A stretch of DNA of 64,000 nucleotides from Sphingomonas naasensis (GTDB lineage Bacteria > Pseudomonadota > Alphaproteobacteria > Sphingomonadales > Sphingomonadaceae). Made by a program: the position numbers and the translations under genes. A model generated the notes under the pieces. It saw only the letters and a list, made by a program, of their open reading frames with translations. It was not told where the DNA came from and searched no databases. Below, in pieces: positions 37,399-41,887 of the stretch. How positions within the stretch are numbered: the stretch's first letter is position 1; each line of letters starts with the position of its first letter. The DNA is taken from positions 1 through 64,000 of the forward strand of contig NZ_SRXU01000008.1 of NCBI RefSeq assembly GCF_004792695.1, read 5' to 3'.

Positions 37399-38082
37399 TT
37401 AGTAGCGGTTCGCGACGACGTCCTCGGGGCCGCGCGAGCGGTCCCAATCCTCGCTCGGCCGCTCGTCGGGGAAATAGACCGCGACCTTCGCGTCGATCCC
37501 CGCGGCCTTGAGCGGCATCGCGAAGCTGCGCTCGATCGCGCGGCGGGTGGCGTCTCTCGCCAGCTTGACCGGGGTGGGGTCGCGCGCCTGGCGGATCAGC
37601 TCCTGCTGGCCGGCCTTGCGATTGGCGGCGTCGAGCTGGGCCTCGACATCGGTGAAGCGCATCAGCAGCCCGCCCTGCGAATATTCGCGGATGCCGTCGA
37701 GATCGACATCGGGGCCGATCACCTCGAGCGGCGGCAGCAGGATGGTGAGGCGGTTGTTCGCCGCGTCCCACGACAGGCTCTTCTGCTGGAGCTTCGCCAG
37801 ATCGACTTCGTAGCGGACCATCCCGGGCATGATCAGCGTCTTCTCGGCGCCGAGCCCGAGCCGGCTCTGGCGCGAGGTGACCACCGCGACATAGCGCGCC
37901 GCGAAGGTGGAGAGGCGGTTCTGCTCGCGCAGCCCCTGCAGGCTCGCCTGCGCGACGGTGACCGGATCGGGGCCGCGGAAGTGATCCTTGACGGTGGCGC
38001 CGAGGAACCAGAAGCCCGCGCCGAGCGTGGCGACCAGCGCGAGCAGCAGCAGCGCGAACCGGGCGATTCCCCAGCGCCTCAT
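37399..38082 (-). CDS. DUF4230 domain-containing membrane-anchored protein
   Basis: The 227-residue protein has one N-terminal transmembrane helix (IARFALLLLALVATLGAGFWFLG) and a soluble extracytoplasmic domain matching DUF4230: SLQGLREQNRLSTFAARYVAVVTS, then LIMPGMVRYEVDLAKLQQKSLSWD and the PPLEVIGPDVDLD block. The function of the family is unknown. The start overlaps the stop of the MBL-fold gene (ATGA), so the two are coupled. Confidence 0.85.
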   Translation of the reverse strand: MRRWGIARFALLLLALVATLGAGFWFLGATVKDHFRGPDPVTVAQASLQGLREQNRLSTFAARYVAVVTSRQSRLGLGAEKTLIMPGMVRYEVDLAKLQQKSLSWDAANNRLTILLPPLEVIGPDVDLDGIREYSQGGLLMRFTDVEAQLDAANRKAGQQELIRQARDPTPVKLARDATRRAIERSFAMPLKAAGIDAKVAVYFPDERPSEDWDRSRGPEDVVANRY

Positions 38083-38936
38083 GCGGCGAGCTTCCACATA
38101 TAGCCATCGCCCTGGACGAGCCCGCGCGCGCGCAAATCGAGCAGGTGGGCGAGCACCGAGCGGCCGGCGGCGCCGGTGAGCCGCGGATCGAGGCCGACAT
38201 ACATGCGCGCCACCATCGCGGGGATCGCGCCGACATCCTCGCGGAGCAGGCGGAGGATCTGGCCCTCGCGCTGCTTGCGATGCCCGATCAGCCCGCGGAC
38301 GAAGCGCTGCGGCTTCTCGATCGGATCGCCATGCGCGGGATAATAGATGCGGTCCGCGCGGGCCATCAGCTTGTCGAGGCTGGCCATATAGGCGGCCATG
38401 TCGCCATCGGGCGGCGCGACCACGGTGGTCGACCAGCCCATGACATGATCGCCGGTGAACAGCGCCCCAGCCTCCGGCAATTCGAAGGCGAGATGGTTCG
38501 AGGTATGGCCGGGCGTGGCGATCGCGGTGAGCGTCCAGTCGGGGCCGGACACGCTCTCGCCGTCCGCCAGCACGCGATCGGGGGCGTAGCCGGTGTCGAA
38601 CGCCGCGTCGGCGCGCGGTCCGGCGTCTTCGAGGGTGAGCGGGGCGCAGCCGATGATCGGCGCGCCGGTGGCGGCCTTGAGCGGCGCCGCGGCGGGGCTG
38701 TGATCGCGGTGCGTATGCGTGCACAGGATCGCCGCCACCGGGCGGCCGGCGATCGCGGCGAGCAGCGCGTCGAGATGCGCGGGCTCGTCGGGCCCGGGAT
38801 CGATCACCGCGAGCGTGGTGGTGCCGATCAGATAGGTCTGGGTGCCGGTATAGGTGAAGGGCGACGGGTTGGGCGCGAGGACGCGCGTGACCAGCGGCTC
38901 GACCGCGAGCGCGACGCCAGTGGGAGCCTCGATCAT
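38079..38936 (-). CDS. MBL-fold metallohydrolase (LACTB2-like) with C-terminal winged helix
   Basis: The 285-residue protein carries the metallo-beta-lactamase fold motif THTHRDHS near 75-82, IATPGHTSNHLAF and FTGDHVMG, all needed for a two-zinc site. The C-terminal third (EGQILRLLREDVGAIPAMVARMY) is the winged-helix-like BLACT_WH domain of the LACTB2 group, whose members are endoribonucleases or thioesterase-like hydrolases. It is therefore not expected to be an antibiotic resistance enzyme, even though a BlaI/BlaR1 pair lies next door. Confidence 0.85.
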   Translation of the reverse strand: MIEAPTGVALAVEPLVTRVLAPNPSPFTYTGTQTYLIGTTTLAVIDPGPDEPAHLDALLAAIAGRPVAAILCTHTHRDHSPAAAPLKAATGAPIIGCAPLTLEDAGPRADAAFDTGYAPDRVLADGESVSGPDWTLTAIATPGHTSNHLAFELPEAGALFTGDHVMGWSTTVVAPPDGDMAAYMASLDKLMARADRIYYPAHGDPIEKPQRFVRGLIGHRKQREGQILRLLREDVGAIPAMVARMYVGLDPRLTGAAGRSVLAHLLDLRARGLVQGDGYMWKLAA

Positions 38937-39060
38937 CGCTGCGATGTGGCGGGTAGGAGCCGCAATGACAAGACCGCCGCCCCTCCCGGCCGAGCCCGGA
39001 GCCCTGGGCGGCCAACGCTCCGGCCTTCGCCCGAGCGCGGAATGCCCGCTACCTCCGCAA

Positions 39061-39101
39061 ATGAAACGGGGCCGGCTGCGAAGGAGTTCAGCCGGCCCCG
39101 T
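39061..39101 (-). terminator. Terminator after the BlaR1-like gene
   Basis: A 13-bp perfect stem (39066-39078 with 39089-39101) encloses a 10-base loop. Read on the minus strand it is followed by TTTCATTTG. It ends the blaI-blaR transcript about 50 bp past the stop codon. Confidence 0.7.
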
Positions 39102-39151
39102 GTGAAGGGTGTTCGCGGAACGAGGGTGCCGCGAACACCCCTCCCCTCTCG

Positions 39152-40690
39152 TCAATCGTCGTCGCGCTGCTTCTCGAGCTCGGCCATCGCCTCGTCGATG
39201 CCCTTGAGCGCCTTGGCGCGCTCGTCGGCGGTCATGTTGGTCTCGTTCTCGAGCGAGCGGCGCGCCATGCGCAGCCCCATGCGGGCGCTGTCGAGGCCGA
39301 AGCGCTTGCTGCGCATCGCGATGCGCTCGGCATCGGCCGCGGCCATCTCGATGCGATCGGTGCAGATGATCATGATCTTCCGGCCGCCGTCCTGACGGTG
39401 CTCGACCGTCGGCTTGCCCTCGCCCTTGCCGCACTTGCCGTCGCGGACATCGGGGATCGAGGCGCGGATCGCCTCGGGATCTGGCATGTCGATCTCGTCG
39501 CGGGTGCCGTCGGCGCGGACGATGACCATCTTGCGGACCTGCTTGCCGGCATGCTTGTCGTCGCTCGAATAGCGATAGACGTGGCGCTCGACCCGCGGCG
39601 CGGCCGCGGCGGCGGGTGCCTCGGGCGCTTCCGGAGCCTCGGGGGCTTCGGCGGCCTCGGGCGCTTCCGGCGGCGCGCCGGGCGCCGGCGGCGCGGGAAC
39701 TTCCTGGCCGAGGCTGACGCCGGTGACGGTCTCGACCCTGCTCTTGAGCGTCTCGGCGGCCTGGCTGCCCGAGACAGTGAAGCCGAGCGCGGCGACCGAG
39801 AGCGCGCCGACGCCAATCAGTCCCGTGGCGACGCGGGTGGGGGAAAATGGCCGGTTCCTCGAAAGCATGCGTAACCTCCCTTTGACTTCGTTGATCGTGT
39901 GCAAGTGACATGCCGCCGAGACCGCACCCCCATGCGCGGACTTGACGATCGCACGGCCATAGGCATGGCGCAGTGCCTGGGCGCGGCCGGCGAGCACAAG
40001 GGCGTCGCAGGCCATTTCCTGATCGGCGCGGAAGGCGCGGAACGCCCGCCATGCGACCGGATTGAACCAGTGGAGCGCGAGCACGATCAGCGCGACCCAG
40101 TTCGCGATCAGATCGCCGCGGACATGATGGCCGAGCTCATGCGCGAGCGCGAGATCGCGCTCCTGCTCGTCGTAGCGCTCCGAGAAATCGCGCGGGAACG
40201 CGACATATTTGCGGAAGACGCCGAAGGCCAAAGGCCCGTGCGCGGCGTCGGTCTCGATCACCCGCACCTTGCCCTGCGCGATCGTGCGGTCGACGCGGGC
40301 GGCGCGCAGCAAAGTCGCGGTGTAGCGGCTGTGCGAGACCAGATGCCAGGCGAGGAACAGCGCCGCGCCCGCCGCCCAGAGCAGCAGCACCACCATCCAC
40401 AGCCCGAAGCTGCCCTCCGCCCCGGCCGCCGGCGCGGCGCCGAGCGGCTCGACGATATAGACCGCGACGATGTCGCTCGCCGCGGCGACCGGCGCCGCCG
40501 CCTGCTCGCGCCAGCTCTCGGGCAGCGGCGGCAGCAGCAGCCGGACGACCGGCAACAGCCACAGCGCATAGGCCATGTGCGGCCCGAAGGCCTTGCGGAC
40601 GGGTCCGCGCAGCGCCAGCACGAGCAGCATCAGCAGCGTGGTGGCGACGAAGGTCTCGAGTGCGAAGCCGATGAAAGCAGGGGCGATCAT
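39152..40690 (-). CDS. BlaR1/MecR1-like M56 family sensor peptidase
   Basis: The 512-residue membrane protein has hydrophobic helices near residues 1-26, 38-55, 96-117 and 195-213, with the gluzincin motif HELGHH at 184-189 between the third and fourth. A fifth helix lies near 288-306. After it comes an Ala/Pro/Glu repeat (about 330-362) and a soluble domain ending in a Lys/Glu-rich helix. The classical penicillin-binding sensor domain, with SxxK and KTG motifs, is absent, so the signal is probably not a beta-lactam. It likely cleaves or inactivates the BlaI-type repressor encoded just upstream. Confidence 0.88.
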   Translation of the reverse strand: MIAPAFIGFALETFVATTLLMLLVLALRGPVRKAFGPHMAYALWLLPVVRLLLPPLPESWREQAAAPVAAASDIVAVYIVEPLGAAPAAGAEGSFGLWMVVLLLWAAGAALFLAWHLVSHSRYTATLLRAARVDRTIAQGKVRVIETDAAHGPLAFGVFRKYVAFPRDFSERYDEQERDLALAHELGHHVRGDLIANWVALIVLALHWFNPVAWRAFRAFRADQEMACDALVLAGRAQALRHAYGRAIVKSAHGGAVSAACHLHTINEVKGRLRMLSRNRPFSPTRVATGLIGVGALSVAALGFTVSGSQAAETLKSRVETVTGVSLGQEVPAPPAPGAPPEAPEAAEAPEAPEAPEAPAAAAAPRVERHVYRYSSDDKHAGKQVRKMVIVRADGTRDEIDMPDPEAIRASIPDVRDGKCGKGEGKPTVEHRQDGGRKIMIICTDRIEMAAADAERIAMRSKRFGLDSARMGLRMARRSLENETNMTADERAKALKGIDEAMAELEKQRDDD

Positions 40691-41055
40691 GACTTGAGCT
40701 CCTTCAGCAGCGCTTCGATCTCGGCGATGTCCTGATCGGTGATCGCGTCGCGCTCGGCGAGGTGCGCGACCAACGGCGTGAGCTTGCCGCCGAACAGCCG
40801 ATCCATGAAGCGGCGCGACTCGCCGCCGACATAGTCGGCGCGATCGACCAGCGGCCGATAGCGATAGCGCCGGCCGTCTTCCTCGTGCGCGATCACGCTC
40901 TTGGCGAGCAACCGGCCGAGCAGGGTCTTGACGGTGTTGGCGCTCCAGTCGCGCTCGGCGGGAACCCGCTCGGCGACTTCCTGCGCCGTGAGCGGCGACT
41001 CTTCCCAGAGCACCTCCATCACCGCATGTTCGGCGTCGCTGATCCGTTCGGTCAT
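40687..41055 (-). CDS. BlaI/MecI/CopY family transcriptional repressor
   Basis: The 122-residue winged-helix repressor has the family blocks ISDAEHAVMEVLWEESPLTAQEVAERV, WSANTVKTLLGRLLAKSVI and a C-terminal dimerisation helix (DIAEIEALLKELKS). Its stop overlaps the start of the M56 peptidase gene (ATGA). A 37-bp palindrome sits 14 bp upstream of the start codon, the expected autoregulatory operator. Such pairs are proteolytic switches: the sensor destroys the repressor. The target genes beyond the pair itself are not evident here. Confidence 0.92.
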   Translation of the reverse strand: MTERISDAEHAVMEVLWEESPLTAQEVAERVPAERDWSANTVKTLLGRLLAKSVIAHEEDGRRYRYRPLVDRADYVGGESRRFMDRLFGGKLTPLVAHLAERDAITDQDIAEIEALLKELKS

Positions 41056-41068
41056 GGGTTCCCTCTTT

Positions 41069-41105
41069 GACTACTTGTGTAATCGTTACGATTACGTCTG
41101 TAGTC
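41069..41105. promoter_or_regulatory. 37-bp palindromic operator of blaI
   Basis: A perfect inner palindrome GTAATCGTTACGATTAC (41079-41095) is flanked by perfect outer half-sites GACTAC (41069-41074) and GTAGTC (41100-41105). The TAC/GTA ends match the kind of half-site used by BlaI-type repressors. It suits two dimers binding side by side. Confidence 0.75.
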
Positions 41106-41545
41106 AAGTCACTGAATGGCCGATGAACGGATTCTGACAGCAACGTGACGGAAACGCCGCACGGCCACGGGCTGTCGGGAAAATTTACAGAGGCGGCTTG
41201 GTGGATCGAGCCGTTAACCACTGAAAGTGCTGGAAAAGCGCGGTTCGGGCAAACTGGCACGCGGGGTGCAAAGCTGAGGATACCCCGAGCGTTTTGACGC
41301 TTCATTCCAGGGTGGGTCGACCGCTTACTTACCGGTCTCGCGTCGACCCACCCGACCCGGGGTTTCCCAGATCGAGATGCGACTCGGACGCAAGTCGCCT
41401 GCGCCTGCCTCAAATGCGTCACCCCGGCCTTGTGCCGGGGTCCACCAAGAGGCCGGGCGAGCAGCAAGACCCTCCTGCTTCTCCGTCGCGGCACAGTGGA
41501 CCCCGGCACAAGGCCGGGGTGACGATGTTTTCGGGAATCAGGCGC
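41106..41545. other. Non-coding gap upstream of blaI and after grxD
   Basis: No gene is seen in these 440 bp. They hold a 12-bp inverted repeat (41310-41321 GGGTGGGTCGAC and its complement at 41342-41353, 20-bp loop) and the REP-like repeat at 41418-41523. The first 150 bp are relatively A+T-rich and may carry the blaI promoter region. Confidence 0.6.
41418..41523. repeat. REP-like inverted repeat with perfect 28-bp arms
   Basis: Arms at 41418-41445 and 41496-41523 are exact reverse complements, and each contains an internal hairpin (CCCCGGC...GCCGGGG). Same arm length as the repeats at 6551 and 33573. It lies just after grxD and may end that transcript. Confidence 0.85.
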
Positions 41546-41887
41546 TCAGGCCCCTGCCGTCACGCCCTTGTCGCCGAGCAGCTGGGCGAGCTCGCCGCTT
41601 TCGTACATCTCCATCATGATGTCCGAGCCGCCGACGAATTCGCCGCCGACATAGAGCTGCGGGATCGTCGGCCAGTCCGAAAAGGCCTTGATGCCCTGGC
41701 GGACGCCCTGATCCTGGAGCACGTCGACGCTCTCGAACTCGGCGCCGAGATGGTTGAGGATCGCCACGGCACGGCTCGAAAAGCCGCATTGCGGGAAGAG
41801 CGGGCTGCCCTTCATGAACAGCAGCACGGGATTGGCGTCGACCAGCCCCTGGATGCGCGCCTGAACGTCGTCGGTCACTTCACTCAC
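41546..41887 (-). CDS. grxD: Monothiol glutaredoxin (Grx4/GrxD type)
   Basis: The 113-residue protein has the CGFS active site in FPQCGFSSRAVAIL near 34-37 and the WPTIPQLYVGGEFVGGSDIMMEM glutathione-binding block. CGFS glutaredoxins carry 2Fe-2S clusters and help iron-sulfur delivery. The start codon is GTG, overlapping the bolA stop (GTGA). BolA-like proteins are the known partners of CGFS glutaredoxins and form a shared cluster complex, so the coupling makes functional sense. Confidence 0.96.
   Translation of the reverse strand: MSEVTDDVQARIQGLVDANPVLLFMKGSPLFPQCGFSSRAVAILNHLGAEFESVDVLQDQGVRQGIKAFSDWPTIPQLYVGGEFVGGSDIMMEMYESGELAQLLGDKGVTAGA

Follow-up and report, generated by a model that had tools for sequence, protein, structure and literature searches.

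When a BlaI/M56 pair has no penicillin sensor, its usual annotation is that of a beta-lactam regulator, or else the pair goes unexplained. The closest described systems are BlaR1-BlaI and MecR1-MecI of Staphylococcus and Bacillus, in which a Penicillinase_R repressor is encoded beside an M56 protease in an autoregulated operon with TACA/TGTA-type dyads. According to excerpts of the published reports, BlaR1 of Staphylococcus aureus cleaves BlaI directly (PMC9834060), this cleavage follows the acylation of the BlaR1 sensor (PMC9834060, PMC7593790), and BlaI can be loosened from DNA by a peptidoglycan dipeptide (PMC3305447). A sensor-less BlaR is already in print for mycobacteria: in the excerpted description of the pair Rv1846c-Rv1845c (BlaI-BlaR), BlaR has no extracellular beta-lactam sensor (PMC5473688, citing Sala et al. 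2009), the BlaI targets include blaC, ATP synthase and cytochrome bd, and the sensing of the signal is stated to be unknown (PMC5473688). The CopY/CopR copper repressors belong to the same superfamily, and two operators with 21-base repeats and a refined 16-base operator, RNYKACANNYGTMRNY, are described for CopY in the excerpts of PMC7253601.

The window, which is the whole 64,000-nucleotide stretch of Sphingomonas naasensis DNA analysed here, holds a pair of this kind. It shares with BlaR1-BlaI and MecR1-MecI the repressor beside the protease, the type of dyad and the dyads at its own promoter; unlike BlaR1, its M56 protein appears to have no class-D-like penicillin sensor and carries a small cysteine-paired domain in its place, and the set of predicted target genes is different. 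Compared by description, the mycobacterial pair is similar in its sensor-less BlaR and in having targets beyond beta-lactamase, and differs in the targets named (PMC5473688, excerpts). We propose that the Sphingomonas pair is probably a repressor-protease switch for the cell envelope that follows the plan of BlaR1-BlaI but receives its input through another domain. No description of this system was found among the literature matches listed, which does not prove that there is none; the whole words BlaI, BlaR and M56 do not occur in PMC12864828 and PMC10754441, and the excerpts of PMC12565901 and PMC8265638 hold nothing bearing on the sensor question. As far as the searches show, three elements described below are new: the domain with its conserved cysteine pair, a regulon that can be read from the sequence, and the folA module.

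Layout of the blaI-M56 locus and its operator

The features of the locus are as follows (positions in the window).

38079-38939, minus strand: LACTB2-type MBL-fold hydrolase, downstream of the pair (Lactamase_B 1.1e-23, BLACT_WH 1.4e-9)
39152-40690, minus strand: M56 membrane metalloprotease gene, P0002, 512 aa (Peptidase_M56)
39155-39595, minus strand: C-terminal domain of P0002, residues 366-512, beta strands followed by a two-helix hairpin, with Cys420 and Cys443
39863-40663, minus strand: M56 peptidase domain of P0002, residues 10-276 (Peptidase_M56, 9.2e-51)
40687-41055, minus strand: blaI-type repressor, P0001, 122 aa (Penicillinase_R)
41069-41084: blaI-proximal dyad GACTAC-N4-GTAATC, exact match to the pattern
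41090-41105: dyad GATTAC-N4-GTAGTC, exact match, its minus-strand start within a -35-like hexamer, TTGACT
41113-41127, minus strand: direct repeat TTCA-N7-TTCA, candidate site of an activator, 7 bp from the operator on its upstream side
41546-41887: glutaredoxin-like gene, upstream of blaI

P0001 matched the Pfam family Penicillinase_R over the full length of the profile (positions 1-115 of 115; 6e-36; 123.7 bits, cut-off 22.6), and its best solved relative is MecI (5.4e-17). Its scores were below the cut-offs of every named BlaI, MecI and CopY equivalog listed. The full-length domain and the dyads at its own promoter point to a repressor of the BlaI/MecI family, with predicted DNA binding. 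The coupling of repressor and protease described in the earlier note is borne out, since blaI and the M56 gene overlap by 4 bp (ATGA). A tblastn search found BlaI at all 80 related loci, with 74-97% identity; this set comprises the best 80 of the relatives listed, mostly from Sphingomonas and some from Stakelama. Among the matches listed, the named relatives reach at most 81% identity across the whole M56 protein. A Sphingomonas-type blaI-M56 locus (L252) also appears in a record titled Arthrobacter sp. TPD3018, an assembly that is probably mislabelled or contaminated.

The 37-bp operator proposed in the earlier note lies at 41069-41105 and can be refined to two 16-bp dyads of the BlaI/CopY type, GAYTAC-N4-GTARTC, with centres 21 bp apart. 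The window has a single place with the 17-bp core given in that note; this place is read on both strands, the second with 1 mismatch, and 0.00 occurrences are expected by chance at up to 3 mismatches (100 shuffles). A strict promoter and terminator scan of positions 38900-41400 found no sigma-70 promoter over the operator and no terminator, and therefore lends no backing to the reading of TTGACT as a -35 element or to the view that the MBL gene stands outside the operon. Three of the four exact dyads of the source genome also match the 16-base CopY-family operator (consensus from the excerpts of PMC7253601) and the fourth has 1 mismatch to it; for off-locus dyads in relatives, the match is exact in 32 of 35 and has one mismatch in the other 3. 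The repressor itself differs from CopY/CopR: P0001 scored 86.1 bits against a CopY_TcrY cut-off of 121.95, is paired with a protease and, having no cysteine in its sequence, lacks the CXC copper motif.

The direct repeat TTCA-N7-TTCA was found up to 60 bp upstream in 35 of 72 blaI promoters (those named loci for which the search stretch contained an exact dyad). Its distance to the first dyad is exactly 7 bp in 25 loci and 28 bp (7+21) in 7, the latter being loci whose first dyad is degenerate. The chance rate was 0.16% in shuffled 45-bp upstream pieces, a slightly generous control because the real search extended to 60 bp, while 0.38 occurrences of the bare pattern are expected by chance in a scan of the whole window. 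The repeat is not general: the same element with the same spacing is found in a clade of blaI promoters. It may represent a site of the type bound by OmpR-type response regulators, which it resembles; no literature on this repeat was found. Between blaI and the glutaredoxin-like gene, a long repeat in inverted orientation (tcaccccggccttgtgccggggtcca ... paired with its complement) occupies positions 41418-41525 of the window and resembles a REP-type element.

The winged-helix BLACT_WH domain is a feature of LACTB2-type proteins, and its presence in the downstream MBL-fold gene agrees with the assignment to that type made before. This gene is conserved downstream in 60 of the 66 related loci compared over 9 kb, so that a functional link with the pair is conceivable; it could also be co-transcribed with blaI-M56.

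P0002 presents membrane helices and the HExxH motif HELGH, the latter in an invariant region of an alignment of 62 sequences (A2; 16 of the 80 named loci were left out). The model of the full protein has a mean pLDDT of 78, and its top PDB matches are structures of S. aureus BlaR1 (from 1.7e-5), which match the M56 part. The score against the BlaR1 equivalog, 98.3 bits, is far below the cut-off of 400. The M56 protein contains a single SxxK, S376DDK, which falls within the linker region, and has no KTG or KSG, in agreement with the earlier claim that a sensor domain with SxxK and KTG is missing; the long Ala/Pro/Glu linker reported together with it is also present.

Dyad-bearing genes in the source genome and in the genus

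The length and specificity of the operator allow a regulon to be read off the sequence. In the source genome (4.34 Mb, 19 contigs), exact GAYTAC-N4-GTARTC was found at 4 places, against 0 for the reversed control. Two of them are the blaI operator, and the others precede two genes elsewhere:

P0004, secreted-looking PF00144 serine hydrolase with DUF3471: dyad 7 bp before the start
P0003, secreted-looking acetamidase/formamidase-family protein: dyad 18 bp before the start

The regulon, which had been considered open, is thus no longer wholly so. Looser scans of the same genome brought no gain, either with up to 1 mismatch (7 places, 4 in the control) or with a stricter pattern and up to 2 mismatches (7 places, 8 in the control).

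P0004 is assigned to the S12/PF00144 serine hydrolases by its domain (S12, the 'Beta-lactamase' family; 3.3e-59) and its motifs S80LSK (SxxK), Y174SN (YxN) and H305SG ((H/K)xG). Its best solved relatives are the ClbP peptidase and other S12 enzymes, including DD-peptidases and class C enzymes. The pair could then belong to a true beta-lactam response, in which the signal is beta-lactams or the cell-wall damage that they cause and P0004 is a beta-lactamase or a drug-insensitive peptidase. Further S12 hydrolases preceded by dyads in four other genomes (G006, G046, G051 and G054) would suit this explanation, as would the direct action of a peptidoglycan dipeptide on BlaI/MecI described in the excerpts of PMC3305447. 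However, P0004 scored 80 bits against the NCBIfam class C beta-lactamase equivalog, for which 415 are needed; the other 21 of the 22 PF00144 matches in the genome have no exact dyad; most of the recurring targets described below (acetamidase, TonB-receptor-like proteins, the small ORF with folA) are not beta-lactam genes; and the M56 protein has no penicillin-sensor motif. We consider this explanation unlikely. The same scores qualify the statement of the earlier note that no beta-lactamase accompanies the switch: a gene of the broad 'Beta-lactamase' family does carry the operator elsewhere in the genome, and in the strict sense of a class C enzyme the statement appears to stand.

Sixty-one genomes of the same genus, evenly drawn from a larger group, were compared. 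P0002 had a match in 57 of them, and 118 dyads were found in 56, against 8 in the reversed control. The four genomes without an M56 match are all free of dyads, and at least one dyad is present in 56 of the 57 genomes with a match, the exception being G050. Eighty-one of the dyads are at M56 loci and 37 elsewhere, and 24 of these 37 precede four recurring groups of genes:

small ORF with folA: 7
acetamidase: 6
TonB-receptor-like proteins: 6
S12 hydrolases: 5

The TonB-receptor-like targets have about 700 aa, and their Plug domain is below the cut-off in both proteins tested. Acetamidase homologues occur in 8 of the 61 genomes, with a dyad before 6 of them; it is lacking in G054 (66% identity) and G046 (49%). 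The 30-bp flanks of the six acetamidase dyads are just 28-32% identical, so these sites do not reflect simple sequence inheritance. For S12, there were 13 matches in 10 of the 61 genomes (E ≤ 1e-60), with a dyad within 20 bp in 3 (65-100% identity), about 340 bp upstream in one (48%) and none in the rest. Several results stand against the reading of the pair as a switch: 9 of the 57 M56-bearing genomes, including G050, lack an exact dyad at their M56 locus, two acetamidase genes and most S12 homologues are free of dyads, and the strict scan detected no promoter over the operator.

Among the remaining 13 off-locus dyads are a doubled site (G047) and a site that precedes a different DHFR (G019), and the ten leftover singletons are about at the chance level (8 in the control). 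In G047, a second copy of the blaI promoter, complete with TTCA repeat and a pair of dyads spaced by 21 bp, precedes a stand-alone winged-helix-like ORF that is not blaI (L134:3037-3600). In G023, a lone dyad is found in the intergenic space that separates a PspF-like activator gene from its divergent neighbours (L145:3050).

The folA module is present in seven genomes (loci L138, L139, L147, L150, L151, L156 and L158), where a small ORF (MRDYLITIITATLAAWLLQ...; MRDYL...TATLAAWLLQ...) starts 15-23 bp after the dyad and is directly followed by folA. The ORF is conserved and unannotated, has about 40-50 aa and presents a hydrophobic start. A folA match was found in 60 of the 61 genomes, the sole genome without it being G019. 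Thirty folA upstream regions were examined and 29 were readable by pattern: seven have an exact dyad and the small ORF, six of which also have the TTCA repeat, and 21 have no dyad, no small ORF and no repeat. In the last one (L272), two 1-mismatch dyads are accompanied by the TTCA repeat, and the small ORF is absent by pattern. The source genome has none of these elements before folA. Since the small ORF and the dyad are jointly present in 7 and jointly absent in 21 regions, they appear to be gained or lost together. In G019, the place of the usual folA is taken by a different DHFR-like gene, which is preceded by a dyad of the BlaI type and by a small ORF that looks secreted (L148:3088-3900).

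The C-terminal domain and the proposed switch

The C-terminal domain of the M56 protein had been described as novel-looking, and the Pfam comparison agrees with this: no family matched more than 1 of the 73 members, and the isolated matches, to one member each, were set aside. Cys420 and Cys443 are invariant both in alignment A2 and in the alignment of 73 C-terminal domains (A3), where column identity averages 26%. Two cysteines separated by 21-29 residues are present in 78 of the 80 related proteins, and the remaining 2 proteins are truncated by contig ends.

Modelled alone, the domain (147 aa; mean pLDDT 82, pTM 0.46) consists of strands followed by a helical hairpin, and Foldseek returned no PDB match for it at E ≤ 0.001. 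In a further fold comparison, the top Z score was 8.5 over 48 residues (PhnD-like helices), and the best rows cover the helical part only; this match may be merely that of a common helix pair. EssB, found by a profile search of PDB sequences (0.0029 over 36 residues), was rejected as a relative and taken as a helix coincidence. No penicillin-binding protein is among the listed matches of the domain, although the lack of a match does not prove that such a fold is absent. In G045, a secreted target of 140 aa (L142), with two cysteines followed by helices, suggested a free copy of the sensor domain; BLASTP (E 0.27 over 31 residues) and profile comparison (probability 0.2%) gave this no support.

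The invariance of the two cysteines, though the domain around them is so variable, would be expected of a redox or disulfide sensor, in which the pair opens and closes with the periplasmic redox state and so switches the protease. A glutaredoxin-like gene is located upstream in 45 of the 66 related loci compared over 9 kb, which would also suit such a sensor. However, a conserved periplasmic cysteine pair is mostly a plain structural disulfide, and the glutaredoxin appears from its sequence to be cytoplasmic, with no signal peptide seen, and is possibly unrelated. A redox sensor is, in our view, quite unlikely.

In the envelope switch that we prefer, dimers of BlaI would occupy both dyads ahead of the blaI-M56 operon, as well as the single dyads of a few further promoters, and so keep the genes behind them off. 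The M56 protein would be an inner-membrane protein whose zinc protease is on the cytoplasmic side and whose small cysteine-paired domain is in the periplasm, a placement suggested by the layout of BlaR1. A periplasmic signal acting on this putative input domain would activate the protease; active M56 would cut BlaI, and the operon itself, the secreted S12 hydrolase and the secreted acetamidase-family protein would be induced. Our guess is that the signal is peptidoglycan or envelope damage.

An extended form of this proposal is put forward tentatively and with distinctly less confidence. It would be a genus-wide envelope-stress switch, with the M56 protease driven by a new disulfide-bearing periplasmic input domain and BlaI running a regulon that is small and evolves fast, made up of exported hydrolases and TonB-receptor-like proteins and joined in some species by a module of a small membrane peptide and folA that has been inserted. 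A fixed activator repeat, carried in one clade by the blaI promoter and the folA module, would bring two inputs to one promoter.

The bacteria are harmless and convenient in the laboratory, and further work can start from specific target genes, a candidate for the input domain and a pair of cysteines suited to mutation. If the proposal is true, the layout of BlaR1 serves generally as a chassis for envelope sensing whose outer domains can be exchanged, and BlaI/M56 pairs of this kind should not be named resistance genes.

A second BlaI/M56 pair in the source genome

The same genome has a second BlaI/M56 pair, on contig C14, whose operator (L034:4577-4606) consists of two GCTACAAATGTAGC sites 16 bp apart. 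The BlaI of this pair might also bind the dyads described above, and its operator is likewise of the TACA/TGTA type; nevertheless, the assignment of the off-locus dyads to this second repressor, or to both, is highly improbable, given that the flanks of its sites are unlike GAY...RTC, that its operator has 2 mismatches to the CopY-type consensus against 0 for the off-locus dyads, and that, in a comparison of 61 genomes mapping the M56 gene of the window only, the dyad tracks this gene. The M56 protein of the second pair has a different, Ala/Pro-rich C-terminal part.
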